Of a stretch of 64,000 nt of DNA, positions 1 through 64,000 are shown in pieces. Position 1 is the stretch's first letter. Each line of letters starts with the position of its first letter. The notes under the pieces are model-generated. The model worked only from the letters and a program-made list of their open reading frames with translations, was not told where the DNA came from and made no database searches. The translations under genes and the position numbers were made by a program. The DNA lies in contig CP126200.1 in assembly GCA_030272155.1 (NCBI GenBank), positions 3,286,001 through 3,350,000 of the forward strand. Reading direction: 5' to 3'. The DNA is from Tetradesmus obliquus. Its lineage: Eukaryota > Chlorophyta > Chlorophyceae > Sphaeropleales > Scenedesmaceae.

Positions 1-674
1 TGGAAACTCACTGGCCGGCTAAAATTCCTACTGGACAATTTTATCCCGGACGTTCCATGCCCAAGCATGTTAGGCCCTTACATGCCTAGGACTGACATAC
101 GAAAATAAGCGCAGCGGCCTTCGATGCGCCCCGACGGTTGAATTTCGCTCCGGGCCGCCTCGTGGCCCATTCTGGAAATGTGCTAGGTGTGCTTCCTGAA
201 AGTTCATTCATTGTTATATCTCTTTGTAAAATGTTGATGTATCAAATTTGAAGCCGTACGAATGTCCTGGGGGCAGGATGCGGGTTGGCACGGGTGTCTG
301 TGAACCGCCACTGGAAACTCACTGGCCGGCTAAAATTCCTACTGGACGATTTTATCCCGGACGTTCCATGCCCAAGCATATTAGGCCCTCACATGCCTAG
401 GACTGACGTACGAAAATAAGCGCAGCGGCCTTCGATGCGCCCCGACGGTTGAATTTTCGCTCCGGCCCGCCTCGTGGCCCATCATGGAAATGTGCTAGGT
501 GTGCTTCCTGAAAGTTCATTCATTGTTATATCTCTTTGTAAAATGTTGATGTATCAAGTTTGAAGCCGTACGAATGTCCTGGGGGCAGGATGCGGGTTGG
601 CACGGGTGTCTGTGAACCGCCACTGGAAACTCACTGGCCGGCTAAAATTCCTACTGGGCGATTTTATCCCGGAC

Positions 675-675
<1 letters not shown>
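1..675. repeat. 312-bp satellite monomers, unit 1
   Basis: The word GCCGTACGAATGTCCTGG starts at 253 and again at 565, giving a 312-bp monomer. Copies are 1-252 (partial), 253-564 and 565-675 (cut by a poly-T tract after CCCGGACG). Monomers differ by scattered substitutions, for example GGACAATTTT versus GGACGATTTT. No coding potential is visible. Confidence 0.9.
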
Positions 676-709
<34 letters not shown>

Positions 710-1013
710 AAGCAAGAACGTTACAAGGGCTGACCTAAATAACTGTGCACTTGCTCCATAAAAAGATCCATTGAGAGAGTGAGGCAACCTGTTCCGCACT
801 CACTCCACAGGTCTCTTGTACCAAGAGACGCTGTCACACGATCATGCAGACAGCCCCTTGCGGAGCAGCCCCGAAAGGCATCCAGGACCTGACCGAGTGC
901 CCAGACTCCACTAAAATCACAGTCGCGCAATGACGTCCTGTGATGTGTGACAGACCGTGATTGGCCCTTGAAACAAAATTTGTCCATGACGTAACTGTCA
1001 GCTATCACTGCAT
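676..1013 (-). mobile_element. 5'-truncated LINE fragment (3' UTR), nested host of later insertions
   Basis: Read on the minus strand, this is the 3' UTR of the same LINE as copies A and B, ending in CGTTCTTGCTTC followed by an A-tract (T676-708 on plus). It continues after the interruptions at 1174-1218 and 1247-1322, matching the 3' UTR of copy A (1705-1830). It is repeated at 6586-6923 and about 8288-8632. Confidence 0.85.
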
Positions 1014-1173
1014 GATCGTGTGACAGCGTCTCTTGGTACAAGAGACCTGTGGAGTGAGTGCGGAACAGGTTGCCTCATTCTCTCAATGGATCTTTTTATG
1101 GAGCAAGTGCACAGTTATTTAGGTCCGCCCTTGTAACGTTCTTGCTTCAAAAAAAAAAAAAAAAAAAAAAAAA
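1014..1173 (+). mobile_element. 160-bp LINE 3'-end insertion, opposite orientation, with target-site duplication
   Basis: The last ~135 bp of the LINE 3' UTR plus an A-tract (1149-1173) lie in plus orientation inside the minus-oriented fragment. They are flanked by GCTATCACTGCAT at 1001-1013 and again at 1174-1186. The equivalent stretch in LINE A (about 1711-1725, CTATCGCTGCATGG) is uninterrupted. The same insertion is in units 2 (6924-7086) and 3. It is a 5'-truncated retrotransposition event. Confidence 0.85.
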
Positions 1174-1218
1174 GCTATCACTGCATGGTGACTTGTACAC
1201 CTCTACAAGCTGCACTTT

Positions 1219-1246
1219 TAGCGTTCTTGCTTCAAAAAAAAAAAAA
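1219..1246 (+). mobile_element. Minimal LINE insertion: 12 nt of 3' end plus A13
   Basis: The segment TAGCGTTCTTGCTTC followed by 13 A is flanked by GCTGCACTTT at 1209-1218 and 1247-1256. LINE A at about 1744-1760 has the unbroken site (AAGCTGCACTTTACAGG). The inserted sequence keeps only the last 12 nt of the LINE before the A-tail. A copy lies at about 7133-7160 in unit 2. Confidence 0.8.
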
Positions 1247-1374
1247 GCTGCACTTTACAGGCAGCATTACGACACCTACACAAGACGCCTATTAATAGGT
1301 GACGGATTGTCGACACAGACAATCGACTGTGATTTTAGTGGAGTCTGGGCACTCGGTCAGGTCCTGGATGCCTT

Positions 1375-1382
1375 TCAGGGCT

Positions 1383-1386
<4 letters not shown>
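1375..1386. repeat. Target-site duplication of LINE A, left copy
   Basis: TCAGGGCTGCTC directly precedes the poly-T of LINE A and recurs at 5586-5597 after its truncated 5' end. The uninterrupted locus at 7288-7299 carries it once. Confidence 0.9.
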
Positions 1387-1415
<29 letters not shown>

Positions 1416-1517
1416 GAAGCAAGAACGTTACAAGGGCGGACCTAAATAACCGTGCACTTGCTCCATAAAAAGATCCATTGAGAGAATGAGGCAACCTGTT
1501 CCGCACTCACTCCACAG

Positions 1518-1536
1518 GTCTCTTGTACCAAGAGAC
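1518..1536 (-). other. Conserved hairpin in LINE 3' UTR
   Basis: On the minus strand GTCTCTTGGTACAAGAGAC can fold into an 8-bp stem with a 3-nt loop, about 100 nt from the A-tail. The same element is at 811-829 and in every other fragment long enough to include it. One lineage has GTCTCTTGGTGAAAGAGAC (about 5628-5646), which keeps a 7-bp stem. A role in recognition by reverse transcriptase is inference. Confidence 0.6.
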
Positions 1537-2204
1537 GCTGTCACACGATCATGCAGACAGCCCCTTGCGGAGCAGCCCCGAAAGGCATCCAGGACCTGAC
1601 CGAGTGCCCAGACTCCACTAAAATCACAGTCGCGCAATGACGTCCTGTGATGTGTGACAGACCGTGACTGGCCCTTGAAACAAAAACTGTCAGCATAGTG
1701 TAACTGTTATCTATCGCTGCATGGTGACTTGCACACCTCTAAAAGCTGCACTTTACAGGCAGCATTACGACACCTACACAAGACGCCTATTAATAGGTGA
1801 CGGATTGTCGACACAGACAATCCCCACCTGACTATTCATAGACTCTCCACTTCATGCAAAGCACATCCTGCTACTGACCGAACATACACCTATGAGATAT
1901 GTGGCATTCTGTAGGAAATGACACCACCTCAGGCACACAAAGCCACACACACACAAACTAATCCACACATGCTGCACACATCCTCGTACACTGCTACCCA
2001 CACGCACGCATACATAACGTACTCTGCTACCCACTCACATGCATACATAACGTATCCCGGCCATCAACTTAGCCTTTGCCATACTATTTTGCAACACATC
2101 ACAACGAGGAACGACGGCCACTACTCCAACGAACGCATTGTACACCCCGCCCGAACCGTCAAAACAGACCACCACGCCTCGTAGACCCGTGCCCAATCCA
2201 TCCC

Positions 2205-3627
2205 TCACATGCCAGCCGCGCTGGCCCGAACCTTGATGCGCCCATTTGCGCCCATCCTATACAGTGCTCCCCACTTCTGCTCAAAGTCAACAAGTTTGAT
2301 CTCAGGCGACCTTCCCTGCAGCCATGCAAACGGTATCCCACAACCTATCCTAACATCTACTTCCACCCTATCCCACTCCCTCTGAATTTGCTGCCGCAGC
2401 TCTGCCAGAAACCTACACGCCACAGCCTTAGTAGCGTATGATGAGCTGCCCGGCTCGCCAGTTGTACCCCGTTGACTGCCCATGCTGCTGCTGTTGCTGC
2501 TGCTGTCCTCTGCATCGCTGATGCCGTGGCTCTGAGATTGAGAATTGCTGCCTGCATTGCGGCTGCCGCTGCCATCGCTGCCATCTGCACTGGCCACAAT
2601 CACGCCAGCCCTGATGCTGCTGCAGCGCACCACCCAAATGGACTCCAGCAGCAGCAGACGCAGCTGCGTCCACATCTGCTGCTGCCCTGCTGGCGGGGCC
2701 CACACACTGAAGTCATCCAGCAGCAGCAGACGGCTGTTATTAACAGGGACCACTGCTCCGGGCTGCACACGCTGCCACACCTGTTGCGCGTACCACTGCC
2801 ACGCTGCTGCAGCTACAGGGCACTCCACTAACAAGTGGGTGAGGGTCTCCAGTTGCTGCGGCTGCTGGCACTGCTGTGCTGGGCAGGTAAAGTGAGCCGG
2901 CGCGTGTCTGCTGGATGCCAGCATGCGCCGTGCGCCTACCTTCACTCCTGCATGCAGAAGCCGCCAGCCAAACACTCGCAGCCGCCTCGGCAGCTGGGTG
3001 TCTTTTAGCCGCTGATAACTCGCCACCCAGCGGTGCTGCATGGCATTGGCAGCACCCATGGAGTGAGTGATCGGGTCCAGTAGATCATTGTGTGCTGGGC
3101 AGCTGATGCGCTGCTGTTGCTGCTCCTGTTGCTGCCGTTGAGCCGTGACTACTGCTGCTGCTGTTGCCGCGCGCTGTCTTGGCAGCTCCCGCTCCCTGGA
3201 CGGATCCATCCAGGACGCATGGTAAGCCGCCATCATAGCTGCGTCGCTAAACCGCTGGCTGCCACTGCTGCTGCTGCTACGATTGCCAGGCGCCTCGCTA
3301 TTTTGCTGCATTTGCTGGAAGGACCGTTTCTGAGCTGCCTCCATCTCCTGCAAGCCGTCCTGTGGCGCCTCAGCACCCAGGCGGTTGCGCCACAGGCGCG
3401 GGCGCATGCCGACACCTGATAGCCATCCCTCTTTGCACTGCCGACTGCATTGCTCCTGCAGCAGCCTGCATGTTGCCACCTTTGGCGTGAACTGCAGCAA
3501 GCTGACAGCAAACCCCATCCCCCATACACTAGGATCTACGCGAATGTCTGCCCAAGCCCCCACCAGGTACCATGACGGCGTGCTTCGCGATTGCTGCTGC
3601 TGCTGCTGTTGCTGGTGCTGTCCTTGG

Positions 3628-3690
<63 letters not shown>

Positions 3691-5585
3691 CCCTGGTGGT
3701 GCTGCTGCTGCTGCTGCTGCTGCTGCCGTTCCTGTTGTTGCTGCTGTCGCGGCTGCTGCTGTTGCCATGCAGCTGGCTGCTGCAGCTGCTGCTGCTGACG
3801 TTCCTGTTGTTGCTGCTGTCGTGGCTGCCGCTGTTGCCGTGCTGCTGGCTGCTGCCGCTGTTGCTGCTGCTGCTGCCGCTGCTGCCGCTGCTGTTGTTGC
3901 CGCTGAAATGCAGGGTGCGGCACTGCTGTTACATCTACCACACAACATGGCGCCCATTGGAGGGCTGCTGTGTCCATTAGGACAGCTGTTGTGGCCTTCA
4001 AGCTGCCATCCTGCTGCACCTTGTAGCACTTGGTGGTGCCGTCGTGCTGCAACTGTTGTGCCCACTGTTGCTGCGTGTCGGTCTGCCATGCACCTGTGCT
4101 GCCCTCCCGCAGAGTGTGCAGCCATGCCGGCGGCAGCACAATGCCATCTTGCTGCGGCTGTCCAGTTAGCTGCTGCTGCACCTGCCCCAGTGTGGTGCCT
4201 GCGCCGTGGCGCAGCTGAGCAGGGAGGGCACCGGCTGCTGCCAACATCTGCCCATCTGAGCTGCTGCCCACGCTGTGGTTCCCCACCAGCAGCTCAAGCT
4301 GGATCTGCTGGCTGGTCATGGCGCTGTGCTCGACGTGCCTGTGAATGCCCACGCTTTGCAGCGCCTCTATGTATGCTGATAGGCGCAGCGGCAGCCTGCC
4401 GCCCCTGGCGGCAGCCTGCAGCGGCGCCTTTGATCGCTGCACCAACGCTGCCTCCCCTAGTCCTGGCAGTGCGTGGCGCAGGTTGGCCCGCATGAAGGCC
4501 TTCCATGGGGCTCGCCGCGGCGACAGCAATGCTGCTGCTGTACGTGCCTGCATTGCTGTGGCGTGCGCCCTGACATCCACCTGCCTCATTCCGCCCATGC
4601 TGAAAGGCAGGCTGGCCACTGCTGCCGGAGGGCTTTCATTCCACTGCCGGATGTTGGCTTCTCGAGCGCAGCCCTGCTCTGTCACAAACCCTAAGAGGCG
4701 GCGGTGCATCCTGGCCATGATATCTACTGGGACTGGCACGAACTGCGCATGATAGGTGATGCAAGATGCCATCATCTGCTGCGCAACTGCGCAGCGCCCC
4801 AAATAGCTGAGATTCTGCCGTGCCCACTGCCGCGCCCGGTATGTGATGGTTTGCAGGCGCTGCGTGTACAGCGCTGCTGCATGCGGCTCTGCGCCTGCTG
4901 CTGACAGCAGCAGACCCAGGTGCCTGATCGGGTGTAGTGCTGTATCATGGAACGGTATCTGCGTGGCTGGATCTACCCCTACAAACGGCTGCTGCGTGCC
5001 CACTTCCATGCCCTGGCACTTGCTGACTCCCAGCTTGGCGCCACTCGCTGCACAAAACGGCTGTACTGCTTTCCTCACCAGCACAGCAACGCCTTGCCTG
5101 CTGGCGGCGTGCAGGGTGGTGTCGTCTGCATGCTGCATGCTGCAGGGTGCTGCTGAGCCGTCGGGCATGCTGATGCTGTCCACTTCCCCTGCTGCTTGCA
5201 GCGCTCTGCATTTGGCCGCCAGCGGCTGCGCTGCTAGCACATACAGCAGCGGGCTGAGTGGGCTGCCCTGCGCGCAGCCAGAGGGGATGTCAAACACCCT
5301 GCTGAGGTGGCCGCCGTTGAACACGATGCGGCCCTGTGTGCCTGCCAGCAGCAGCTGTACCCACCTACGCATGCCTGGCGGGAACTGCATTGCTGCCATG
5401 CACTTCATCAGCCATTCCCTGTCTAGCCTGTCATAGGCCTTCTCAAAATCCAGAAACAAAATGCAGCCGGGCTGCTGCTGCGTCCTGAGGAAGTCAACTT
5501 CCTCCAGGTGCAGCAGCACATTGTCTGCAATGTCCCTGCCTGGAACAAACGCTGTCTGAGTGCTGTCCACGACGCTGTCCAGCAC
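2205..5585 (-). CDS. LINE ORF2 fragment: reverse transcriptase with Gln-rich linker and zinc knuckle
   Basis: The frame is open for 1126 codons up to the insertion junction, so its true N-terminus is lost and the first Met is not a real start. Reverse-transcriptase motifs are TAFVPGRDIADN (residues 11-22), FLDFEKAYD (about 44-52), GCAQGSPLSPLLY (about 103-115) and the catalytic box QHADDTT (about 151), where His replaces the usual Tyr or Phe but both Asp remain. A Gln-rich stretch (about residues 560-680, CTG runs at 3595-3900 on plus) separates these from a C-terminal CPAQQC...HLLVEC zinc knuckle (about 895-920) typical of plant and algal L1-like ORF2. It would copy element RNA, but lacks the endonuclease. 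Confidence 0.9.
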
Positions 5586-5597
5586 TCAGGGCTGCTC
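5586..5597. repeat. Target-site duplication of LINE A, right copy
   Basis: TCAGGGCTGCTC follows the last LINE-coding base at 5585. The flanking CGCACGGGGC continues the interrupted unit as at 7300 onward. Confidence 0.9.
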
Positions 5598-5739
5598 CGC
5601 ACGGGGCTGTCTGCATGATCGTGTGACAGCGTCTCTTGGTGAAAGAGACCTGTGGGGTGAGTGCGGAACAGGTTGCCTCACTCTCTCAACGGATCTTTTT
5701 ATGGAGCAAGTGCACAGTTATTTAGGTCAGCCCTTGTAA

Positions 5740-5797
5740 CGTTCTTGCTTCAAAAAAAAAACAAAAAAAACGTTCTTGCTTCAAAAACAAAAAAAAA
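5740..5797 (+). mobile_element. Doubled LINE 3' tail
   Basis: A plus-strand LINE fragment (1325-1386 joined to 5598-5770 across LINE A) ends with CGTTCTTGCTTC and an A-tract containing one C. A second CGTTCTTGCTTC (5771-5782) and second A-rich tract follow at once. The second tail looks like another minimal insertion into the first A-tract. It is repeated at about 7442-7499. Confidence 0.7.
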
Positions 5798-5851
5798 TGC
5801 AGGCAGCCCCGTGCGGAGCAGCCTCGAAAGGCATCCAGGACCTGACCGAGT

Positions 5852-6584
5852 GCCCGTACGAATGTCCTGGGGCAGGATGCGGGTTGGCACGGGTGTCTGT
5901 GAACCGCCACTGGAAACTCACTGGCCGGCTAAAATTCCTACTGGACAATTTTATCCCGGACGTTCCATGCCCAAGCATGTTAGGCCCTTACATGCCTAGG
6001 ACTGACATACGAAAATAAGCGCAGCGGCCTTCGATGCGCCCCGACGGTTGAATTTCGCTCCGGGCCGCCTCGTGGCCCATTCTGGAAATGTGCTAGGTGT
6101 GCTTCCTGAAAGTTCATTCATTGTTATATCTCTTTGTAAAATGTTGATGTATCAAATTTGAAGCCGTACGAATGTCCTGGGGGCAGGATGCGGGTTGGCA
6201 CGGGTGTCTGTGAACCGCCACTGGAAACTCACTGGCCGGCTAAAATTCCTACTGGACGATTTTATCCCGGACGTTCCATGCCCAAGCATATTAGGCCCTC
6301 ACATGCCTAGGACTGACGTACGAAAATAAGCGCAGCGGCCTTCGATGCGCCCCGACGGTTGAATTTTCGCTCCGGCCCGCCTCGTGGCCCATCATGGAAA
6401 TGTGCTAGGTGTGCTTCCTGAAAGTTCATTCATTGTTATATCTCTTTGTAAAATGTTGATGTATCAAGTTTGAAGCCGTACGAATGTCCTGGGGGCAGGA
6501 TGCGGGTTGGCACGGGTGTCTGTGAACCGCCACTGGAAACTCACTGGCCGGCTAAAATTCCTACTGGGCGATTTTATCCCGGAC

Positions 6585-6585
<1 letters not shown>
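5852..6585. repeat. 312-bp satellite monomers, unit 2
   Basis: Monomers are 5852-6162 (311 bp, one G fewer in the GGGGG run), 6163-6474 and a truncated 6475-6585 that ends at the same CCCGGACG/poly-T junction as in unit 1. Confidence 0.9.
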
Positions 6586-6619
<34 letters not shown>

Positions 6620-7058
6620 AAGCAAGAACGTTACAAGGGCTGACCTAAATAACTGTGCACTTGCTCCATAAAAAGATCCATTGAGAGAGTGAGGCAACCT
6701 GTTCCGCACTCACTCCACAGGTCTCTTGTACCAAGAGACGCTGTCACACGATCATGCAGACAGCCCCTTGCGGAGCAGCCCCGAAAGGCATCCAGGACCT
6801 GACCGAGTGCCCAGACTCCACTAAAATCACAGTCGCGCAATGACGTCCTGTGATGTGTGACAGACCGTGATTGGCCCTTGAAACAAAATTTGTCCATGAC
6901 GTAACTGTCAGCTATCACTGCATGATCGTGTGACAGCGTCTCTTGGTACAAGAGACCTGTGGAGTGAGTGCGGAACAGGTTGCCTCATTCTCTCAATGGA
7001 TCTTTTTATGGAGCAAGTGCACAGTTATTTAGGTCCGCCCTTGTAACGTTCTTGCTTC

Positions 7059-7090
<32 letters not shown>

Positions 7091-7287
7091 TCACTGCATG
7101 GTGACTTGTACACCTCTACAAGCTGCACTTTTAGCGTTCTTGCTTCAAAAAAAAAAAAAGCTGCACTTTACAGGCAGCATTACGACACCTACACAAGACG
7201 CCTATTAATAGGTGACGGATTGTCGACACAGACAATCGACTGTGATTTTAGTGGAGTCTGGGCACTCGGTCAGGTCCTGGATGCCTT

Positions 7288-8286
7288 TCAGGGCTGCTCC
7301 GCACGGGGCTGTCTGCATGATCGTGTGACAGCGTCTCTTGGTGAAAGAGACCTGTGGGGTGAGTGCGGAACAGGTTGCCTCACTCTCTCAACGGATCTTT
7401 TTATGGAGCAAGTGCACAGTTATTTAGGTCAGCCCTTGTAACGTTCTTGCTTCAAAAAAAAAACAAAAAAAACGTTCTTGCTTCAAAAACAAAAAAAAAT
7501 GCAGGCAGCCCCGTGCGGAGCAGCCTCGAAAGGCATCCAGGACCTGACCGAGTGCCCGTACGAATGTCCTGGGGCAGGATGCGGGTTGGCACGGGTGTCT
7601 GTGAACCGCCACTGGAAACTCACTGGCCGGCTAAAATTCCTACTGGACAATTTTATCCCGGACGTTCCATGCCCAAGCATGTTAGGCCCTTACATGCCTA
7701 GGACTGACATACGAAAATAAGCGCAGCGGCCTTCGATGCGCCCCGACGGTTGAATTTCGCTCCGGGCCGCCTCGTGGCCCATTCTGGAAATGTGCTAGGT
7801 GTGCTTCCTGAAAGTTCATTCATTGTTATATCTCTTTGTAAAATGTTGATGTATCAAATTTGAAGCCGTACGAATGTCCTGGGGGCAGGATGCGGGTTGG
7901 CACGGGTGTCTGTGAACCGCCACTGGAAACTCACTGGCCGGCTAAAATTCCTACTGGACGATTTTATCCCGGACGTTCCATGCCCAAGCATATTAGGCCC
8001 TCACATGCCTAGGACTGACGTACGAAAATAAGCGCAGCGGCCTTCGATGCGCCCCGACGGTTGAATTTTCGCTCCGGCCCGCCTCGTGGCCCATCATGGA
8101 AATGTGCTAGGTGTGCTTCCTGAAAGTTCATTCATTGTTATATCTCTTTGTAAAATGTTGATGTATCAAGTTTGAAGCCGTACGAATGTCCTGGGGGCAG
8201 GATGCGGGTTGGCACGGGTGTCTGTGAACCGCCACTGGAAACTCACTGGCCGGCTAAAATTCCTACTGGGCGATTTTATCCCGGAC

Positions 8287-8328
<42 letters not shown>

Positions 8329-8767
8329 AAGCAAGAACGTTACAAGGGCTGACCTAAATAACTGTGCACTTGCTCCATAAAAAGATCCATTGAGAGAGTG
8401 AGGCAACCTGTTCCGCACTCACTCCACAGGTCTCTTGTACCAAGAGACGCTGTCACACGATCATGCAGACAGCCCCTTGCGGAGCAGCCCCGAAAGGCAT
8501 CCAGGACCTGACCGAGTGCCCAGACTCCACTAAAATCACAGTCGCGCAATGACGTCCTGTGATGTGTGACAGACCGTGATTGGCCCTTGAAACAAAATTT
8601 GTCCATGACGTAACTGTCAGCTATCACTGCATGATCGTGTGACAGCGTCTCTTGGTACAAGAGACCTGTGGAGTGAGTGCGGAACAGGTTGCCTCATTCT
8701 CTCAATGGATCTTTTTATGGAGCAAGTGCACAGTTATTTAGGTCCGCCCTTGTAACGTTCTTGCTTC

Positions 8768-8798
<31 letters not shown>

Positions 8799-8834
8799 TC
8801 ACTGCATGGTGACTTGTACACCTCTACAAGCTGC

Positions 8835-8836
<2 letters not shown>
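7288..8836. repeat. Higher-order repeat unit 3, cut off by LINE copy B
   Basis: Third copy of the 1.70-kb unit. It follows unit 2 base for base through the satellite monomers (7554-8289), a longer poly-T tract and the nested LINE fragment (insertion ending in an A-tract near 8794). It stops inside the word GCTGCACTTT at 8837, where the poly-T of LINE copy B begins. The array does not resume after copy B. Confidence 0.88.
7554..8287. repeat. 312-bp satellite monomers, unit 3
   Basis: Monomers are 7554-7864, 7865-8176 and a truncated 8177-8287, again ending at the CCCGGACG/poly-T junction. The phase is the same in all three units, so the poly-T insertion predates amplification of the 1.70-kb unit. 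Confidence 0.9.
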
Positions 8837-8867
<31 letters not shown>

Positions 8868-11078
8868 AAGCAAGAACGTTACAAGGGCGGACCTAAATAA
8901 CCGTGCACTTGCTCCATAAAAAGATCCATTGAGAGAATGAGGCAACCTGTTCCGCACTCACTCCACAGGTCTCTTGTACCAAGAGACGCTGTCACACGAT
9001 CATGCAGACAGCCCCTTGCGGAGCAGCCCCGAAAGGCATCCAGGACCTGACCGAGTGCCCAGACTCCACTAAAATCACAGTCGCGCAATGACGTCCTGTG
9101 ATGTGTGACAGACCGTGACTGGCCCTTGAAACAAAAACTGTCAGCATAGTGTAACTGTTATCTATCGCTGCATGGTGACTTGCACACCTCTAAAAGCTGC
9201 ACTTTACAGGCAGCATTACGACACCTACACAAGACGCCTATTAATAGGTGACGGATTGTCGACACAGACAATCCCCACCTGACTATTCATAGACTCTCCA
9301 CTTCATGCAAAGCACATCCTGCTACTGACCGAACATACACCTATGAGATATGTGGCATTCTGTAGGAAATGACACCACCTCAGGCACACAAAGCCACACA
9401 CACACAAACTAATCCACACATGCTGCACACATCCTCGTACACTGCTACCCACACGCACGCATACATAACGTACTCTGCTACCCACTCACATGCATACATA
9501 ACGTATCCCGGCCATCAACTTAGCCTTTGCCATACTATTTTGCAACACATCACAACGAGGAACGACGGCCACTACTCCAACGAACGCATTGTACACCCCG
9601 CCCGAACCGTCAAAACAGACCACCACGCCTCGTAGACCCGTGCCCAATCCATCCCTCACATGCCAGCCGCGCTGGCCCGAACCTTGATGCGCCCATTTGC
9701 GCCCATCCTATACAGTGCTCCCCACTTCTGCTCAAAGTCAACAAGTTTGATCTCAGGCGACCTTCCCTGCAGCCATGCAAACGGTATCCCACAACCTATC
9801 CTAACATCTACTTCCACCCTATCCCACTCCCTCTGAATTTGCTGCCGCAGCTCTGCCAGAAACCTACACGCCACAGCCTTAGTAGCGTATGATGAGCTGC
9901 CCGGCTCGCCAGTTGTACCCCGTTGACTGCCCATGCTGCTGCTGTTGCTGCTGCTGTCCTCTGCATCGCTGATGCCGTGGCTCTGAGATTGAGAATTGCT
10001 GCCTGCATTGCGGCTGCCGCTGCCATCGCTGCCATCTGCACTGGCCACAATCACGCCAGCCCTGATGCTGCTGCAGCGCACCACCCAAATGGACTCCAGC
10101 AGCAGCAGACGCAGCTGCGTCCACATCTGCTGCTGCCCTGCTGGCGGGGCCCACACACTGAAGTCATCCAGCAGCAGCAGACGGCTGTTATTAACAGGGA
10201 CCACTGCTCCGGGCTGCACACGCTGCCACACCTGTTGCGCGTACCACTGCCACGCTGCTGCAGCTACAGGGCACTCCACTAACAAGTGGGTGAGGGTCTC
10301 CAGTTGCTGCGGCTGCTGGCACTGCTGTGCTGGGCAGGTAAAGTGAGCCGGCGCGTGTCTGCTGGATGCCAGCATGCGCCGTGCGCCTACCTTCACTCCT
10401 GCATGCAGAAGCCGCCAGCCAAACACTCGCAGCCGCCTCGGCAGCTGGGTGTCTTTTAGCCGCTGATAACTCGCCACCCAGCGGTGCTGCATGGCATTGG
10501 CAGCACCCATGGAGTGAGTGATCGGGTCCAGTAGATCATTGTGTGCTGGGCAGCTGATGCGCTGCTGTTGCTGCTCCTGTTGCTGCCGTTGAGCCGTGAC
10601 TACTGCTGCTGCTGTTGCCGCGCGCTGTCTTGGCAGCTCCCGCTCCCTGGACGGATCCATCCAGGACGCATGGTAAGCCGCCATCATAGCTGCGTCGCTA
10701 AACCGCTGGCTGCCACTGCTGCTGCTGCTACGATTGCCAGGCGCCTCGCTATTTTGCTGCATTTGCTGGAAGGACCGTTTCTGAGCTGCCTCCATCTCCT
10801 GCAAGCCGTCCTGTGGCGCCTCAGCACCCAGGCGGTTGCGCCACAGGCGCGGGCGCATGCCGACACCTGATAGCCATCCCTCTTTGCACTGCCGACTGCA
10901 TTGCTCCTGCAGCAGCCTGCATGTTGCCACCTTTGGCGTGAACTGCAGCAAGCTGACAGCAAACCCCATCCCCCATACACTAGGATCTACGCGAATGTCT
11001 GCCCAAGCACCCACCAGGTACCATGACGGCGTGCTTCGCGATTGCCGCTGCTGCTGCTGTTGCTGTTGCTGTCCCTGG

Positions 11079-11111
<33 letters not shown>

Positions 11112-11126
11112 TGTTGCTGTCCCTGG

Positions 11127-11159
<33 letters not shown>

Positions 11160-12334
11160 TGCTGTTGCTGCTGTCGCGGCTGCTGCTGTTGCCATGCTGC
11201 TGGCTGCTGCAGCTGCTGCTGCTGATGTTCCTGCTGTTGCTGCTGTCTTGGCTGCCGCTGTTGCCGTGCTGCTGGCTGCTGCCGCTGCTGCTGCTGCTGC
11301 TGTCGCTGCTGCCGCTGCTGTTGTTGCCGCTGAAATGCAGGGTGCGGCACTGCTGTTACATCTACCACACAACATGGCGCCCATTGGAGGGCTGCTGTGT
11401 CCATTGGGACAGCTATCGTGGCCTTCAAGCTGCCGTCCTGCTGCACTTTGTAGCACTTGGTGGTGCCATCTTGCTGCAACTGTTGTGCCCACTGCTGCAG
11501 CGTATCGGTCTGCCATGCACCTGTGCTGCCGTCCCGCAGAGTGCGCAGCCATGCCGGCGGCAGCACTATGCCATCTTGCTGCGGCTGTCCAGTTAGCTGC
11601 TGCTGCACCTGCCCCAGTGTGGTGCCTGCGCCGTGGCGCAGCTGAGCAGGGAGGGTGCCGGCTGCTGCCAACATCTGCCCATCTGAGCTGCTGCCCACGC
11701 TGTGGTTCCCCACTAGCAGCTCAAGCTGGATCTGCTGGCGGGTCATGGCGCTGTGCTCCACGTGCCTGTGAATGCCCACGCTTTGCAGCGCCTCTACGTA
11801 TGCTGATAGGCGCAGCGGCAGCCTGCCGCCCCTGGCGGCAGCCTGCAGCGGCCCCCTGATCGCTGCACTAACGCTGCCTCCCCTAGTCCTGGCAGTGCAT
11901 GGCGCAGGTTGGCCCGCATGAAGGCCTTCCATGGGGCTCGCCGCGGCGACAGCAATGCTGCTGCTGTGCGTGCCTGCATTGCTGTGGCGTGCGCCCTGAC
12001 ATCAACCTGCCTCATTCCGCCCATGCTGAAAGGCAGGCTGGCCACTGCTGCCGGAGGGCTTTCATTCCACTGCCGGATGTTGGCTTCTCGAGCGCAGCCC
12101 TGCTCTGTCACAAACCCTAAGAGGCGGCGGTGCATCCTGGCCATGATATCTGCTGGGACTGGCACGAACTGCGCATGATAGGTGATGCAAGATGCCATCA
12201 TCTGCTGCGCAACTGCGCAGCGCCCCAAATAGCTGAGATTCTGCCGTGCCCACTGCCGCGCCCGGTATGTGATGGTTTGCAGGCGCTGCGTGTACAGCGC
12301 TGCTGCATGCAGCTCTGCGCCTGCTGCTGACAGC
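8837..12334 (-). mobile_element. LINE copy B, more strongly 5'-truncated
   Basis: This element is nearly identical to copy A (shift 7451 over the 3' half), with an A-tail at T8837-8866. Similarity stops at 12334, matching position 4908 of copy A, so copy B lacks the whole reverse-transcriptase core. The left junction falls in GCTGCACTTT, the word used by the minimal insertion in units 1 and 2. The right flank (CCTGGCCTCTGG) shows no matching duplication, so the right junction may be a later rearrangement. Confidence 0.88.
9656..12334 (-). pseudogene. Frameshifted C-terminal part of LINE ORF2
   Basis: Two frames join near 11855. There copy A has 7 nt between CAGCGG and GATCGCTGCAC while copy B has 6, a 1-nt deletion that splits the ORF. 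The Gln-rich linker is 24 nt (8 codons) shorter than in copy A. The zinc knuckle is intact. With no catalytic box and a frameshift, it cannot encode an active enzyme. Confidence 0.88.
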
Positions 12335-14206: not shown

Positions 14207-16565
14207 CCCCCCCCCTCCCCCCACCTTGGGCGCAGGTCCATGGCCGCCTGCACCTCCTGGATGCGCCGCAGCGCTGACGCAAACACCAGCGCGGTCGCAC
14301 GCGCCATCTGCATCCACAGCGGCTGCAGCAAGCAGCAGAGGCATATTGGGAGGACACACAGCAGTCAGGGCAAGAGTTCCCATGCCTGATTATTAGCAAG
14401 ATGTGCTGCTGCGCTGCCTCAACTGTAGGGCAGTGCTGTGGTCCACGATATGGCTGTGCATGCAGTTTAGCTGCGAGCAATGTGATCACTGCTGTTGGCG
14501 CGTGCCCACCTTCCAAGCAGAGGCGCCCAGGTGCTGCGCCAGCTGCTGCAGCGACCACACATCACCGTTCTCATTCTGTGCGTAGTTGGTGATGTGGCCG
14601 GCGCCAAAGGAGCCGCCACTGAAGTCTGCACAGCAGCAGGACAGTGAACAAGCTTTGAAAGTAGCAGTGAGAAGTTGGATGCAACAGCAGACATGTGACT
14701 AGCGCAGCACACACCAGACATGCAGACGGCCACCCCCACGTAGCAGTCCGCGGGCCCCAGAGTTTTGCCAACAGCCGTCGCAGGCGCCGGCACAGGCCGC
14801 CCTGCTGCTGTTGCTGCCGGCGCGCCGCACCTGCGGGTCTGTAGGCGTCGCTGCTGAACAGTGCCAGCCCGTTGCGGTGCAGGTACACCCGCAGCGGCGA
14901 CACGCCCGGCACCGCCACCCACAGCCGCACGCCAAACTTGCGCCCGTTGATGAGCAGCGGGTCGTTGATGTACTGCTGTGCCAGGTACCAGCGGTACAGC
15001 GTGATGCCCTCCAGGCCGGGCCGTGTGGTGGTCTCAAAGCAGGCCTGGAAGGCGGCTGCGGTGGGCACCAGGCGCAGGCCCGTGCCGCGCTGCTTGTTGT
15101 TCTTGAGCATCCACAGCCCCGTGTCCTGCAGCAGCGCAGGCAGAGGCTGGCCTTGTCAGCTGTGCGGGAGTGATGTTTGGTGCTGTTTTTTTAGTGTTGA
15201 GGCGTAGCAGCAGCGCTGCTGCTTTGTGCAGTGAGCTTGCTGTTGTGGCTTGTGTCTACAACTGTCACAGGCTTGGCTGCCAGCTTGCAGGTGTGACAGG
15301 CATACAGGCACGTTCAGCATGCGCTGAATTGTTCAAAAACGCCTGCTGGATGCAGCAGCGCTGTGCAGCTGTCCGGGTCCTGCCACGCAGCCTCTGTCGC
15401 TGCCATCCACCACCCACTACCAACCACACTACCAACCACATTCTCAACCACATTCTCAACCACACTGGCGGGCGCTCATGTGCCGAGGTGTGCCGGGTGC
15501 CCACCTGCTCCGGCTGTGCCGCCACCCACCACGCTACCAAAGGCACCCGTGTTCATGTGCCTGGCACCAAACTAGCTGACAACAGGCGTGTGCACACGGC
15601 CCCCACCTGCTGCGGGTGTGCGTGCAGCCATGCCTCCCATGCGTCCAGCTCCTCGGGCAGCTTGAAGGTGCGCGGCACCAGCCTGAAGGCGGTGTCAGGG
15701 CCGTAGGCGTTGAGCAGGCTGCGCACCAGGCTGGTCTTGCGGCTGATGCACAGGCAGCCCGGCACGATGCTCACCACCTGGTGCGGCCGCAGCACCTGCG
15801 GGGCATAACCAGAGGCGCAGAAGCGATAATGTCATGTTGCTGGGTAAGGAGGTAGCTGTGGCTGGGTGTATTGCTTGCCCAGGTGCCACGCTGCTCCTGC
15901 TGTGCACTGGATGACATGCGCAGGGAGTGCAGCATCCAGCTGATGGCGGCGATGCTACAGTATCTGAGCTGTCACCACCATTGTCTACTCCTTGAACACA
16001 AGCGTCCCCTTGGGCACAAGCATTCACAGGAGCGGCTGTGACGCTGAGCAGCAGCCGGTGAGCACCTAACTCATCCAGTTGCGCTGGTGACAGATCAACA
16101 TCAACAGCTTGCGCTCCAGTTGTTGTACCAGATTCTTACTAATCTTAAGGAGAACATGGCTGCTGCTTCTGCCGCTGCTGCTGCCGCCCACTGCGCTATC
16201 CTGCGGTGACGTCCCTCCTGCCAGCCTGCTGCTGCCCAGCAGCACCCCTGCAGCACCCTGCAGCAGCTGCTGCTGGCCCTCACGCTCCCGTGGCGCACCT
16301 CCGCCGCCAGCATGGCCTTGGCTGTGATGCTCAGCAGCAGCTCCCATCTGTCCATGTGCATGTAGCCGTAGTCGCGGATCTTCTGCCTAGCAGCGGTCAC
16401 AGGGTCCAGCTTGGGCGGCCCGCCTGTCTTGACCCCGCCCAGGGCCACCAGGGCAGCCTCAGGCAGTGCGGCGCTCTCAGGGCTGGAGAAGGCCTGGTAG
16501 TCGATCCAGTAGCGGAAGCGTGCGGGGTGGCTGGGCGGCCACGGCACCGCTGCTGCTGCTGCCAT
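13264..16565 (-). CDS. Tubulin tyrosine ligase-like (TTLL) family protein
   Basis: Family members are ATP-grasp ligases that add amino acids (Tyr, Glu or Gly) to tubulin tails. Eight exons join in phase: 16565-16299, 15795-15607, 15125-14831, 14801-14715, 14625-14510, 14322-14225, 13965-13767 and 13482-13264 (about 489 residues). Family marks are WMLKNN and GTGLRLVP (exon 3), the core YINDPLLINGRKFGVRLW, HITNYAQNENGDVW (compare HLTNYSVQ), and the C-terminal FQYFGLDFLVD...WLMEANATPSM, where the Glu-x-Asn binds Mg-ATP in the family. The substrate class cannot be told from sequence. The Met at 16565 follows a possible acceptor, so an upstream exon is possible. The gene is divergent from TAD3. 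Confidence 0.85.
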
Positions 16566-33497: not shown

Positions 33498-34436
33498 CTA
33501 TCCCCCTGTACTGCTGCTGCTGCTGCTGCTGCCGTCTAGCCGCCGCTTCAGCCACTCATACATGGCCCAGCTCAGCGCGCAGCCTGGCGCGATGTTCAGC
33601 AGCCGTGGCGTCAAGCCATGCCAGAAGCTGCCCACCCCCTCAGCCGCCAGCTGCTGCTGCGCCAGCTTCAGCGCCGTCAGCGCCGCGCCACCCTGCTGCC
33701 CCGTCAGCACCTGCAGGCGCGTCTTCACCACGTCAGCCGGGTGCGTCAGCACCGCTGCGCCTGCTGCTGCTGCCGCAGAGCAGCTCGCCACCACCAGCGG
33801 TGGCAGCTCCTGCGTGTCTTGCAGCTGCAGCAGCTGCGCACTGTGCCGCTTTAGCTGCTCGTAGCCCGCAATGTACATTGCATTCCACGGCAGCCACACG
33901 CAGTTGGTGGCCCAGTAGCCCCTGAACAAGCCACGCAGGCCCTGGCCGCCGCCTAGTAGTGCCCTGAAGGCCTGGCCTGGTGAGGCGTAGCTGTAGCTGC
34001 CCCGCATGAGTGCCTGCACCTGCATACGCTCCTTGACGATGTCGATTGGGGTGTATACAACGCCAGCAAGCACCTGAGCCAGTGCGCCAGTGGCCATGTC
34101 ACCAGCCATGCCCCAGTGACCTGGCATCAGGGCTTTGCCCAGCTCATAGCCGCCAAAGTAGGCCAGGTTGGCAGGCACCACGCCCCACAGCACAGCGCCA
34201 AAGCCTCTGTAAAACCCGATTGGCCCCTCGGTCGCCAGCATGTGCCGCGCAGCTGAGAAGGTGCTGCTGTACACTGCATCTGCGTTGACAGCACCACGGA
34301 TCTGCAGCCGTGCTTTTAGTGTGTCAGTTGGGAAGGTTACGATGCGAGCTGACAGCCCTGAAACTGCTCCTGCCACGAGCCCATGCCATACTGGCGGGCT
34401 GCTGGTGCTGCTGCTGCTGGTGCTGCTGCTGCTGGC

Positions 34437-34467
<31 letters not shown>

Positions 34468-34508
34468 CACACGTGGCTGCTGCTGCTATCATGCTCTAGC
34501 TGCGTCAT
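33498..34508 (-). CDS. Mitochondrial carrier family (SLC25) protein
   Basis: This is an inner-membrane metabolite carrier with three tandem repeats in one exon of 336 codons. Signature motifs PTDTLK (about residue 63), PIDIVK (about 160) and PADVVK (about 265) mark the odd-numbered helices of each repeat. Each is followed by the usual aromatic-Gly element (GFYRGFGAVLWG, GLFRGYWATN, SFWHGLTPR). The N-terminus is a Ser-rich run from CTG repeats (34385-34465), not typical of the family, and precedes the first helix WHGLVAGAVSGL. The substrate cannot be told. It starts at ATG 34506-34508 and stops at TAG 33498-33500. Confidence 0.93.
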
Positions 34509-37070
34509 GGCTGAGACATGTCACCACAGCTTCCGCACTTCATCGTGTTTGCCGTACACGTCTTTCTATCTGAGCCCGAGCAGTTCCACGTTCTTCTATA
34601 GGCGCCCCGTGTTACGCAGGAAACCCTACTAACTCTCCGTCGTCGAAACAGCGTCAACCATGCCTTCTTGGTACTTTGTGATGCCTGAGAGACACTGTGT
34701 GCCGTATCTGACGCCAATGTGTCACCTGCCCGTGTTGCTGCTGCCAGTACAGTAGTGCTGCTGCTTGAGAGGCAGCTGCTCACCTGCACTGCTGTGCCAC
34801 CCTGTGTAAAAAGTCGCAGTTGTTACACTTCACAGGCGCAATGCAACATAGCGAGCACTCACATTGCTAAGAGGGCCCCCACTTGGCACCACGGCTGCTC
34901 AGCAGCCATTCAAGTTGAACCTCACTGGCAGTTATTCAGATACCCAGGGCATTCACCCCCGGTCAGGCCTAAGTCCCTGCAGCACAACTGTGCTGACAAC
35001 AAGTGCCCAGCACACTCATTTACGCGAAAATCCACAGTGAGAGGTATGAGTTCGTCCATTTACAGTGAGTGCATGAGGATTCAAAAACTGCGCATCCGCG
35101 GACCACTGCTTGTTTGTTGGTTTGTTGGTTGTTTGCCGAGCAGCAGGCTCCCAGGATACTACAGTACGCCCAATCACTTCACATGCATCTTCACTGCTAT
35201 TACAAGAATGCTGCCAGTCTGAGCAGCTCTGCCAGAGCTCAGCGACCAGCCGCTTTGACAAGATGCAGTCAGCACAGCCAATCACCCGACATTTAGTTTT
35301 AAATACGTTCAACGCGCTGCGAGGGAGGTGAGGCAACTATGCAGATGGCAGCAGCAGCAGCAGCAGCAGGAGCAGCAGCAGCAGCAGCAGCAGGCAGCCC
35401 ACGGCCAACGTCTTTGTGCAAGGTGTTGCTTGTGGTCATTTCCCACCGCAGTATTGCGGTTTTTTCGGCATCTCTGCACTGCGCTGAGAAGCGCCTGGAA
35501 ACACGTGGCGAGGTACTACACCATCTTGCTATGCATATTGTTGTCAACAGCGATTCCCACTGCTGTGGTGGTGCCACTGCACCCTACGCGGTCTTCTGAC
35601 ATGGATATACGTGCGCAATGGTTCAAATGTGCATATGAAGTGTCTGTCATGGGGAGCACCAGTGTCTGTGTGCCCGTTTCAGACCTTGCAGGGACATGGT
35701 GACCATCTACTGTGATTGCAATCAATGTCCGGTCACTGCTACTTGCATGCAGTGACTCCCATGCACATTATCTGTGTTATAAATTTGACGGATATGTTGT
35801 TTCTCCTGCTGTTGTGGCTGATCTGCGAGTGTCATGACTGGGACCTGCACCGTGGTCTACCCAAGACTACTTGAAGGCCGGGGGCAGGGGTCACAGGTGG
35901 TCCGCCCATGGACCCCTAACGACCCTGCCCTGTAACCTTCTCTGTGCCTACAGGTGAGAACTTCGCATGATGCTATGATGCCATGATGCTGGAAAGCAGT
36001 GCTTGCGTGGACAGCCCACTTGGAGCGCCGGGGGACCTTGGGCGGGAGGTCTCCTGGACAAGCAATGCTTGAAGGTGCGCAGCTTTGCATTTTTCATGCT
36101 AGACTGTCCATCTTTACAATTAACTAGCAGCTACAGCACACAATCACTGTACTTGATGACATGACATACCACGACCGTACCACGGCAACATCGGCACCAA
36201 CCGTTTATTTCAAGTTCTGCCGCAGCAACGCGGTGCTGCAACGCGGTGCTGTGCACTGGATGCCTGCTGCCTGCTGCCTGCTGCCTGCTGCCCACTAGGC
36301 TGATTCACTGCCGCTTTAAATTTGGCAACATTGGCAGCACCTTTGGCAGCACCTTTGTTCTGGTGGGATCCAGTGTCAGCAAGCGGGATGCGTGTTGCAG
36401 CGACTGTCATGGTCAACAAAAATAAGATACATATGTTTCTTGGGATGATATACATGTGTATTGCATTCAGCCAGTAGCAGCAGTCAGCCCACATGTGGGC
36501 AATGTACATTACAGGGGCGTCGGATACATCCGTTATATAACGAGTCATCATCAACCACCAACACCAAGGTAATGGACATGGCATGCTACTATATTTGCAG
36601 TGTGAGCAAGGTTGCCCAGGAACTGTTGGTCGAGACTGTGGCTCTCATGCATCACTGGCTGCATTACCACGTTGGGTGCTCTGTCTCCAGATACAAGAGA
36701 CTGAAACAAAATGCAGTCGAACGGTTGACATGGAGTGGAGTTCGTCACTCATCATGTTTTAAACATCTCATTCGAGAACGAATTGGCGAAGAGCAAAAGG
36801 CAAGGCTGAAGGTAAGGCTGAATTTTCTAACCGACTCCCGCGCTTCCCCTGCTGCAGGTATAGCGACATTATCGCCAGGAGGCGCTGCCTGGTGCTACTG
36901 CTTTGATCTATGGTTTTATTGACCTACGGACAACACATCGTTTGTAATTTTCATGTTGCTCAGCTGCTCTGTGCCCGGCAACGTGCTACCTTGGACGAGG
37001 ATCCAAGGCGGTGTGCGCCTAAGCTGGGTTGTTGATTCAAAAAAAGGGTGGCATTTCTGTATTGTATGCC
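34509..37070. other. 2.5-kb region without recognised gene
   Basis: A longer than usual gap between divergent genes. A CAG run at 35347-35393 and a TGCCTGC cluster at 36260-36292 are the only marked features. Several frames of 60-160 codons exist on both strands, but none has a family motif or convincing splice context. Unrecognised exons or a non-coding RNA cannot be ruled out. Confidence 0.4.
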
Positions 37071-61869: not shown

Positions 61870-64000
61870 ATGACCAGATGGTGTCTCGTGAGCTTGAGAA
61901 GGAGTGTGTGGTGGTGTTTGACGAGGCGCACAACATCGACAACGTGTGCATCGAGGCGCTCAGCGTCAGCCTGCGCCAGCAGACGCTCAACGCCGCTCGC
62001 CGCAACATCACCAAGCTCGAAGGGGTGAGGGGCTGTCGGGGTTCAAGGGCTGACGTGTGGTTTTGATGTCCAAGGACAACAGCAGGCGACCCACTGTGGA
62101 GCTTGTTGCATGCTAGCGGTTGGTCTGCAAGTATGTCACAGCATATGCTGCAGTGCCGATGTGATTGCAGGCAGAACAACATCGCATCAGTGATGCGGCA
62201 TCATGCAAGCTTTCGTCAGTACTGAAGAGTGCTGATGCTTTCAGGTTCCCAATCAACCAATTGTGCAATCGACTAACCTGATTGTACAAGCACACGCCTT
62301 GCGCGCCAGAATGTCGTGCAAGAGGTGCGCAAGGCAGGCCACCAACAGCCGTCGGCTTCAAGATTAGTCGTTGGCTGCATTTCTGACTGTGCAACGTCAT
62401 GCCTTGCAGGAGGTGCGCAAGGCGCAGGCCGCCAACCGTGCGCGGCTTGATGAAGTGTAAGCTCTTGCTGCATGTCTCATGCTGGACCTGTGCATGTCTG
62501 CGCCTGTTGTCTCACTGGAGGTGCGCAAGGCGCAGGCGGCCAGCCGTGCGCGGCTTGATGAGGAGCAGGCAGACTTGCCCTATAGTAACTCTGACCTGTA
62601 GGACCTGTGTTTCTGCACTTACTGCATTGCAGGAGGTGCGCAAGGCGCAGGCAGCCAACCGTGCGCGGCTTGACGAGGAGCAGGCAGACTTGCCCTATAG
62701 TAACTCTGACCTGTAGGACCTGTGCGTTTCTGCACTTACTGCATTGCAGGAGGTGCGCAAGGCGCAGGCCGCCAACCGTGCGCGGCTTGATGAGGAGCAG
62801 GCAGACTTGCCTTATTGCAACTCTGACCTGTATGACCTGTGCATTTCTGCACTTACTGTTTCACAGGAGGTGCGCAAGGCGCAGGCGGCCAACCGTGCGC
62901 GGCTCGACGAGGAGTACCGGCGGCTGGTGGGCAACCTGGTGGAGGCGCAGCAGCTGCGGGGCGGCGAGGAGTGGCTGGCCAATCCAGCACTGCCCGAGGA
63001 CATCGTGAGGGAGAGCATGCCGGGTGCGGCGCGTTGCATACACCTGCCAACAGCCTGCTTGAGTCGTCTTTGTTTGTGTGCTTCGCGGCGCTGAGCCTAG
63101 TTGCGGAGCAGCTCGCACCTGCTGGGCGGGCTCAAAGCCAGCGTGGCTGTTGTGACTTGATGCTCTTGCCAAGTTGCTGGCTTGCCTTAGTTTGCGCCCT
63201 GCTGCTGGCAGGTGCCACAGCGCAGCCAACTGTTGTCTCTCTTTGCATGCTTGCCACACGATGACGTCCTACGGGTGCCGTCACATTTGCCAAGCACATG
63301 TATAGAGCACCTTGTGCACAACAACCTCCTCCAAACGCCCAATTCTTTGCTCACCCTTCCCTCCCGCGCACCGCACGCGTACACATGCTTGCAGGCAACA
63401 TCAGGCGCGCAGAGCACTTTATTGGCTTCCTGCGGCGTTTTGTGGCGCACTTGTACGAGCGCATGCGCACGCCCGCGGTGGTGGCGGAGGGGCCCGCAAG
63501 CTTCCTGGGGGGCGTGCAGGCAGCAGTGGCAGTGGACGCAAAGACGCTACGGTGCGCGCTGGGCGGAGGTTACGTGAGGCTTAAAACCTGCTTATACCTA
63601 TGCACAGATTGCTGCTGCTACTGGTACTGCAGAACAACTGCTGGTACTTCTGCAGCTGCCTGCCTTTCTGGCTCCCCCCATCAGCGCTACAGCGTGCTTG
63701 CACCCTGGGTACCCAACCTCACCACCCGGCATCTCTTCATCTGACTTGCCGCTCAGGTTCTGCTACGACCGGCTGTCGTCGCTGTTGAAGACGCTGGAGA
63801 TCACCAACACCGACGACTTTGGGGCCATCCAGATGGTGGCGGACTTTGGCACGCTGCTGGGCACATACAGCAGGGGCTTTGCTGTCATCATCGAGCCGTA
63901 TGACGAGCGCTTGCCACACATACCAGACCCAGTGCTGCAGCTTAGGTGCGTGCTGACATGGCTCTGAGTGTACAGGATGTTGATGTGTGCTAGAATGTTG
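59201..64000 (+). CDS. XPD/RAD3 (ERCC2) DNA helicase of TFIIH, partial
   Basis: This is the 5'-3' Fe-S helicase of TFIIH, for nucleotide excision repair and transcription. Ten exons are visible: 59201-59323, 59701-59772, 60125-60190, 60525-60630, 60918-61067, 61319-61458, 61878-62024, 62867-63023, 63395-63551 and 63757-63945 (435 of about 760 residues). An intron then runs off the window. Motif I is MPTGTGKT and motif [11 protein letters not shown]. The four Fe-S Cys are present (NLCIH, DAGCRRL, IETCSFF, QGWCPYF). The Arch domain includes [17 protein letters not shown] and [16 protein letters not shown]. It begins [21 protein letters not shown] as in the family. Tandem copies of the exon 8 start lie in intron 7. 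Confidence 0.94.
60082..60124 (+). repeat. (CTG)n tract forming the XPD exon 3 acceptor
   Basis: About a dozen CTG triplets run directly into CCAG at the 3' splice site. Comparable sense-CTG runs precede other acceptors in this window. Confidence 0.85.
62322..62912 (+). repeat. Tandem copies of the XPD exon 8 acceptor/exon start
   Basis: The segment GAGGTGCGCAAGGCGCAGGC...GCGCGGCTTGATGA starts at 62410, 62518, 62633, 62750 and 62867, with a decayed copy at about 62332. Spacings are 108, 115, 117 and 117 bp. Only the last copy runs on into the conserved DEEYRRLV. Copies at 62410, 62633, 62750 and 62867 keep an AG acceptor; the one at 62518 has CTG instead. The unit includes the intron 3' end (CTGCACTTACTGCATTGCAG). 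Confidence 0.9.

Follow-up and report, generated by a model that had tools for sequence, protein, structure and literature searches.

A satellite and a self-nesting L1-type LINE form one block, probably centromeric, on each chromosome of the green alga Tetradesmus obliquus

Introduction

The closest described relatives of the repeat block analyzed here are clusters of self-nesting long interspersed nuclear elements (LINEs) in green algae. In Chlamydomonas reinhardtii, the L1-type LINE ZeppL-1_cRei forms one cluster per chromosome and is reported to be absent elsewhere (Craig et al. 2021, PMC8226300; gap-free assembly, PMC10030371). Nested Zepp LINEs of Coccomyxa subellipsoidea also form strictly one cluster per chromosome, mostly in internal positions (Blanc et al. 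2012, PMC3446292). Centromeres across the genus Chlorella are a mixture of Copia, L1, and RTE-X elements (PMC11005252), and short AT-rich centromere candidates are described for Auxenochlorella (PMC12633428). In the portions of the literature on which we draw, green-alga centromeres are LINE, Copia, mixed-transposon, or short AT-rich candidates (including the EasyCen, PMC13324764, and CC-5816, PMC10030371, reports), and tandem-repeat abundance was low in seven basal plants, green algae among them (Melters et al. 2013, PMC4053949). Here, we describe a block of LINE and satellite DNA that reaches into a 64,000-bp stretch of Tetradesmus obliquus (the window), C10:3286001-3350000, where C10 is contig CP126200.1 of assembly GCA_030272155.1 (104,662,953 bases in 17 contigs, C1 to C17, whose lengths sum exactly).

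These blocks share several features with the published clusters and differ in others. As in C. reinhardtii, there is one L1-type LINE cluster on each of 17 chromosomes, with nested, 5'-truncated copies of the kind described for Zepp. However, in C. reinhardtii the LINE is the major component along with some other transposons, and the sections of the reports used here mention no centromeric satellite, whereas in T. obliquus a 311-312-bp satellite is the regular partner of the LINE and the two form compound repeats. Clusters in C. reinhardtii measure 252-480 kb, vs. 118 kb on C10. The Coccomyxa clusters resemble ours in nesting, number, and mostly internal position, but they measure 1.5-42.3 kb, and the consulted part of that paper mentions no satellite. 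Finally, Chlorella sorokiniana centromeres mapped by CENH3 (Wang et al. 2024, PMC11005252) are likewise retrotransposon-rich, but according to that paper, two Chlorella genomes with CENH3 or methylation data lack tandem satellites in their centromeres.

Genome-wide distribution of the LINE clusters

In C10:3160001-3350000, satellite and LINE fill a block at 3179961-3298334 (118 kb) from edge to edge, covering 103,425 bases, and window positions 1-12334 are its right edge. Neither the 20 kb to its left nor the ~6.7 kb annotated to its right contained any piece of LINE or satellite. The block ends abruptly at window position 12334, just where the original prediction had placed a sharp switch, and in window positions 12335-64000, we found no block-repeat copy of at least 60 bp once CAG/CTG-rich matches had been filtered out. 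GC content was 0.55 and 0.59 in two C10 flanks vs. 0.49 in the array core, and the CpG observed/expected ratio was 0.84 in the core (C10:3223689-3277860) vs. 0.53 and 0.56 in the flanks. This high ratio suggests that the array is young or only lightly methylated in the germline.

The same LINE clusters once on every chromosome. Using a 78-residue C-terminal query, with the best 150 of 161 candidates scored, we found that 147 of the 150 matches grouped into a single cluster on each contig (17/17), at relative positions 0.30-0.87. The 3'-end pattern of the LINE occurred 1418 times genome-wide at up to two mismatches, compared to 0 for the reversed control; a variant 3' end had 441 exact occurrences, which may be included in the 1418. 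Positions on C1, C3, C7, and C13 came from the C-terminal and 3'-end queries and from reading the DNA; the reverse transcriptase (RT) search gave none there. On C13, which had two single C-terminal matches, we took 1.97 Mb as the cluster because 5 kb there shows nested LINE pieces and satellite, and 3.172 Mb as a lone copy. Each chromosome therefore has one such locus, away from its telomeres, and the LINE is nearly absent elsewhere. Scattering of the LINE along chromosome arms, which the original prediction had named as evidence against itself, was not what we observed. TTTAGGG repeats were present at each of the seven contig ends that were read out of 34, namely the start of C11 and both termini of C10, C14, and C15, and the contigs thus appear to be complete chromosomes.

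One cluster showed an ordered strand pattern. Among the exact LINE 3'-end matches listed for C1:4418602-4540723, all were on the forward strand as far as 4461599, whereas from 4464727 nearly all were on the reverse strand, as if the block held an inversion point.

Sequence relationships of the two repeats

An intact LINE copy on C10 is ~8.5 kb long, and its second open reading frame (ORF2) has 1898 codons. The first 1238 of these contain an APE endonuclease (PF03372, Exo_endo_phos; 2.8e-12) and an RT domain (PF00078, RVT_1; 9.3e-29). In PDB, the top row for the RT was 8c8j, named RNA-directed DNA polymerase (3.5e-15), and matches included LINE-1 ORF2 protein (7.7e-15) and R2 (3.3e-07). With LINE-1 ORF2 proteins as the best matches and R2 behind, the RT is L1-like, in keeping with what had been expected of it. 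The element combines this L1-type RT and APE endonuclease with a poly(A) 3' end, frequent 5' truncation, and nested copies, and by analogy, it appears to be Zepp-type in its behavior.

An RT protein search (best 108 of 172 candidates scored, matches counted by eye) separated this family from others. Of 109 matches, 47 belonged to it (70-100% identity) and lay inside the clusters or no more than ~5 kb outside them, while 62 were other families at 28-38%, 61 of them elsewhere and one inside the C9 cluster. Other L1-like families, with many copies carrying 1518-codon open frames, form local arrays away from the centromere clusters (C8:1465731-1537586, C1:4961647-5004033, and C1:7979012-8056317).

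Copies of the LINE were very similar across chromosomes in part of their length. For a 501-bp RT stretch (best 40 of 42 candidates scored), 33 of the 40 matches, on 13 contigs, were 98-100% identical over at least 499 bases. The C-terminal part falls into two subfamilies that are ~90% alike. Sequences ~96-99% identical to the C10 copy were mainly on C2, C4, C6, C9, C10, C11, C14, and C15, and those at ~88-93% on C1, C5, C7, C8, C16, and C17, plus C3; C12 has both types. In sampled DNA, two off-cluster loci included, we collected 262 A-tailed 3' ends, 92 of them distinct by contig and flank. Of these 92 junctions, 43 opened into LINE and 25 into satellite, and by eye, the sequences after the A-tails of sampled junctions had no obvious common motif.

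The satellite was found genome-wide as well. Its core pattern occurred 1555 times, and the reversed pattern 0 times; the list of places for this core is incomplete, with nine known exact matches absent from it. A profile scan covering 2.5 to 12.4 kb per cluster detected satellite homologues in the cluster samples from every one of the 17 contigs, with a best E value per contig of 3.3e-23 or better. The longest profile stretch was 104 positions on C8, 150 on C14, 226 on C17, and 246 on C11. In the initial C12, C14, and C17 samples, the satellite had escaped BLAST scans that used fewer variants. In a direct search (best 40 of 346 candidates scored), all matches listed were on C10.

Satellite length was 311-312 bp across contigs, and identity depended on the chromosome. 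We compared near-complete monomers, at most six per contig and from one sampled stretch each. Mean identity within a contig was 97.9% (105 pairs, 11 contigs), and between contigs, the median was 61.7% and the mean 69.3%, with a range of 54.9-93.6% (1120 pairs, 11 contigs). These monomers formed two deep clades, one of C5, C7, C12, and C16 and the other of C1, C2, C3, C4, C10, C13, and C15; by BLAST, the C11 satellite joins the former (92% to C16). Two possible origins were rejected. The satellite showed no match to the LINE better than E 0.65, and the C10 monomer is not a dimer of a ~156-bp unit (half-half score of -8.5 vs. -9.5 +/- 4.5 for shuffles).

Considered together, the two repeats seem to evolve at different speeds. 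Because the RT stretch of the LINE is 98-100% identical on 13 contigs and satellites have a median identity of ~62% between contigs, the LINE apparently moves and the satellite is homogenized within each contig. Moreover, LINE subfamilies do not follow satellite clades: C11 pairs the ~96-99% LINE type with the C5/C7/C12/C16 satellite clade, and C1 and C8 show the reverse. On sequence comparison, it seems that the LINE travels from chromosome to chromosome and that the satellite stays in place and is evened out locally. That the satellite is both genome-wide and chromosome-specific is the newer part of these results relative to the original prediction.

Compound repeat units

On C10, the two repeats are combined in a unit of ~1.70 kb that consists of 2.36 satellite copies and nested 3' ends of the L1-type LINE. 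The block yielded 37 unit alignments of at least 1400 bp, 35 of which exceeded 1650 bp. These 35 near-full units had a mean identity of 99.70% and a minimum of 98.68% to the window's intact unit, that unit included, and the step between units was mostly 1699-1709 bp. With the three incomplete alignments dropped, 24 of 34 units were identical after A/T runs were collapsed, and 18 were identical letter for letter. The homogeneous array spans ~3.224-3.278 Mb, and its left border consists of more disordered LINE and satellite pieces. Neighboring monomers were 97% alike, vs. 99.7% for whole units. The array thus has the makings of a higher-order repeat: its monomers are in tandem, its unit is more alike than its own monomers, and its satellite is chromosome-specific (11 contigs).

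Compound units holding LINE 3' ends were also present on C9 (1144 bp at 99%), C12 (736 bp at 99%), C15 (464 bp at 98%), C5 (694 bp), and C7 (~597 bp), which with C10 makes six contigs. Because these units differ in length, the same two ingredients, satellite and LINE, were probably amplified independently on different contigs, as the data suggest. Overall, satellite and LINE debris are apparently homogenized within each centromere. Chromosome-specific higher-order repeats that are homogenized within a chromosome are familiar from human alpha satellite and from land plants and animals. The T. obliquus arrays resemble those satellite centromeres in both respects, but LINE debris is built into their units, and on C10 the array measures tens of kilobases rather than megabases.

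Probable centromere identity

We consider it very likely that window positions 1-12334 are the right edge of the C10 centromere and that every one of the 17 chromosomes carries a single block of this kind. We infer that these blocks assemble CENH3 nucleosomes. The genome contains a putative CENH3-like split gene on C7 (3658180 onward, within C7:3658001-3660500); its N-terminus is diverged, and its loop-1 exon bears a tryptophan. All seven PDB matches of this exon were Cse4, CENP-A, or H3 chimeras with CENP-A parts, although they were weak (E 0.063 to 1.4), and another exon of the gene matched ordinary H3. Histone exons at C1:917-919 kb were rejected as CENH3 since they look like ordinary H3.3 by eye.

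Several points weigh against this assignment. Centromere function was read from position and composition. The LINE also occurs in at least four places off the clusters (C2:4.759 Mb, C3:2.654 Mb, C5:4.666-4.668 Mb, and C13:3.172 Mb), so its targeting is strong but not absolute. Its copies are not uniform throughout, the C-terminal part being divided into two subfamilies, and 24 of the 92 distinct poly(A) junctions were left unassigned. Our searches covered the confinement of the satellite to the clusters only in part, and clusters other than that on C10 were sampled over 2.5 to ~22 kb each, so that satellite share and higher-order structure are sketchy there. Lastly, identical units exceed typical read length, and their assembled copy number may therefore be wrong. 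Two of the off-cluster places, C5:4.666-4.668 Mb and C13:3.172 Mb, showed no satellite when 5 kb of sequence was inspected at each; at the C5 locus (4666-4668 kb), two LINE pieces adjoin in one orientation.

An alternative is that the blocks are pericentromeric heterochromatin, which flanks or contains a smaller functional core, leaving most of the satellite and LINE DNA without CENH3. Satellite-rich blocks in plants are often only partly occupied by CENH3, and the homogeneous C10 array is bordered on its left by more disordered LINE and satellite pieces, which would fit this explanation. Satellite and LINE do fill the 118-kb C10 block fully, which speaks against it, but this carries little weight because other one-per-chromosome repeats were not searched for. 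We regard this explanation as unlikely.

It is less probable still that the blocks are some other heterochromatic insertion hot spot, such as a knob or a replication-termination or recombination-cold region, that is single per chromosome by chance. Once-per-chromosome integration hotspots, e.g., centromeric regions, were the neutral reading for the Coccomyxa Zepp clusters in the part of that report consulted (Blanc et al. 2012, PMC3446292). However, one block on each of 17 contigs argues against this explanation, and the portion of the C. reinhardtii report used here describes a similar arrangement that coincides with 15 mapped centromeres (PMC8226300).

We give very little credence to an assembly artifact, with too many or too few 1.70-kb units placed in the regular array. 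Since 18 of 34 units are letter-for-letter identical, their number cannot be established from reads of ordinary length, but the C10 array is interrupted at separate places by variants, LINE insertions, and an inverted stretch, and other contigs show other periods. The original prediction had left the block's edge as centromeric or subtelomeric; the former fits one cluster on all 17 contigs, and a LINE array that is subtelomeric or maintains telomeres, the arrangement originally described for Zepp, whose first report (by its title, as cited in PMC3446292) concerns accumulation in a Chlorella telomeric region, is rejected as scarcely credible, being contradicted by 17 internal clusters and by the telomere repeats at both ends of C10, C14, and C15 and at the C11 start.

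If the blocks are centromeres, a mechanism for their formation can be proposed. The LINE would multiply by target-primed reverse transcription, and its attraction either to centromeric chromatin or to satellite sequence and copies of itself would carry it from one centromere to the next. Recombination within a block (unequal exchange, gene conversion, or break-induced replication) could amplify a locally arisen segment of satellite and LINE, and the amplified segment would become the chromosome's own higher-order repeat. We find it evenly balanced whether T. obliquus has a type of green-alga centromere that joins both known solutions, in which a genome-wide ~312-bp satellite with two deep clades, present in a separate version on each chromosome, is repeatedly seeded by a mobile, centromere-targeting LINE whose debris enters each chromosome's higher-order repeat, such that the LINE moves and the satellite does not.

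The self-nesting LINE centromere is a known kind; what is new is that all 17 sampled clusters hold a chromosome-specific satellite and that satellite and LINE form higher-order repeats. Among the papers listed by our literature searches, none had a title or abstract that described a green-alga centromere of satellite plus LINE. Still, the claim of novelty is limited because the telomere-to-telomere genome paper on S. obliquus UTEX 3031 (Biondi et al. 2024, as cited in PMC12633428) may well describe these blocks. If our interpretation is true, the pair separates transposition from local homogenization, and transposon insertions may start new higher-order repeats. The much-debated question of whether centromere-targeting retrotransposons seed satellite higher-order repeats, and of what homogenizes these within but not between chromosomes, could then be tested in a small genome. 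The block coordinates would also serve CENH3 mapping and artificial chromosomes in a biotechnologically useful alga.

Detailed structure of the window

The features of the window are listed in Table 1. Tandem Repeats Finder (TRF) confirmed the predicted 312-bp satellite, with 2.2, 2.4, and 2.4 copies at 1-677, 5854-6587, and 7556-8289 and a 97% match. LINE pieces occur in both orientations with the common 3' end ...CTTGTAACGTTCTTGCTTC-polyA, also as foreseen. Of the three 1.70-kb units that had been proposed, only one is intact. Another is split, being broken at 1386 and resuming after 5586 on the far side of a 4.2-kb LINE, and the third is cut off at 8837 by a 3.5-kb LINE whose broken 5' side is the block edge.

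Two insertions retain target duplications. The 4.2-kb LINE at 1387-5586 is flanked by the 11-bp duplication CAGGGCTGCTC at 1376-1386 and 5587-5597, and the next unit has the uninterrupted site. The very short insertion at 1219-1246 is flanked by the 10-bp duplication GCTGCACTTT (1209-1218 and 1247-1256). These duplications are usual marks of target-primed reverse transcription. The truncated ORF2 of the 4.2-kb LINE (2205-5585) contains the RT domain PF00078 (1.1e-20) and a C-terminal zf-RVT match (5.2e-05) that, at 24.3 bits, is under the Pfam cut-off of 27.5.

Table 1. Features of the window (positions are those of the window; LINE coordinates in brackets are those of the reference LINE)
Feature	Position	Strand	Details	Evidence
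312-bp satellite	1-677	+	~2.2 monomers; continues left of window	TRF, LINE/satellite alignment
LINE 3' fragment (8203-8497)	676-1014	-	poly(A) = T-run 676-708; inserted in satellite after CCCGGACG	
LINE 3' fragment (8370-8497)	1008-1173	+	poly(A) tail 1149-1173	
Very short LINE insertion	1219-1246	+	15 nt of LINE 3' end + 13 A	positions by eye
LINE 3'-untranslated region fragment (8104-8185)	1243-1324	-	part of short insertion's host	
LINE 3' fragment (8294-8356)	1324-1386	+	left half of interrupted unit; ends in target duplication 1376-1386	
Young 5'-truncated LINE (4343-8497)	1387-5586	-	99.93% to intact C10 copy; A-tail = T-run 1387-1415	
Truncated LINE ORF2	2205-5585	-	1126 codons	Pfam
LINE 3' fragment	5587-5770	+	right half of interrupted unit	
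312-bp satellite	5854-6587	+	2.36 monomers	TRF, alignment
Intact higher-order repeat unit	5911-7612	+	1702 bp	unit alignment
LINE 3' fragment	6586-6924	-	A-tail = T-run 6586-6618	
LINE 3' fragment	6918-7086	+	A-tail 7059-7086	
LINE 3'-untranslated region fragment	7156-7237	-		
LINE 3' fragment	7237-7499	+	two tandem 3'-end/A-tail copies (window 7440-7499)	
312-bp satellite	7556-8289	+	2.36 monomers	TRF, alignment
LINE 3' fragment	8288-8633	-	A-tail = T-run 8288-8327	
LINE 3' fragment	8627-8794	+	A-tail 8768-8794	
5'-truncated LINE (5021-8497)	8837-12334	-	98.2%; A-tail = T-run 8837-8866; broken 5' side = block edge	
Flanking chromosome arm	12335-64000			repeat comparison + Pfam
Tubulin-tyrosine ligase	14574-15155	-		Pfam
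Mitochondrial carrier	33501-34520	-		Pfam
HBB domain	63265-63741	+		Pfam

In the flanking arm, 3 of the 10 open frames searched matched Pfam. A 117-bp tandem repeat lies at 62400-62914, with 3.4 copies at 62517-62914, and the open frame 62717-63091 overlaps it and repeats a motif of ~39 residues. Elsewhere in the genome, a 300-base piece on C3 encodes 85 residues that are identical (85/85) to the photosystem II D1 protease of PDB entry 1FC6, the Scenedesmus obliquus enzyme; together with the telomere type, this match points to T. obliquus (Chlorophyceae, Sphaeropleales) or a very close relative. An S41 protease gene on C5 was judged by eye to be a paralogue.

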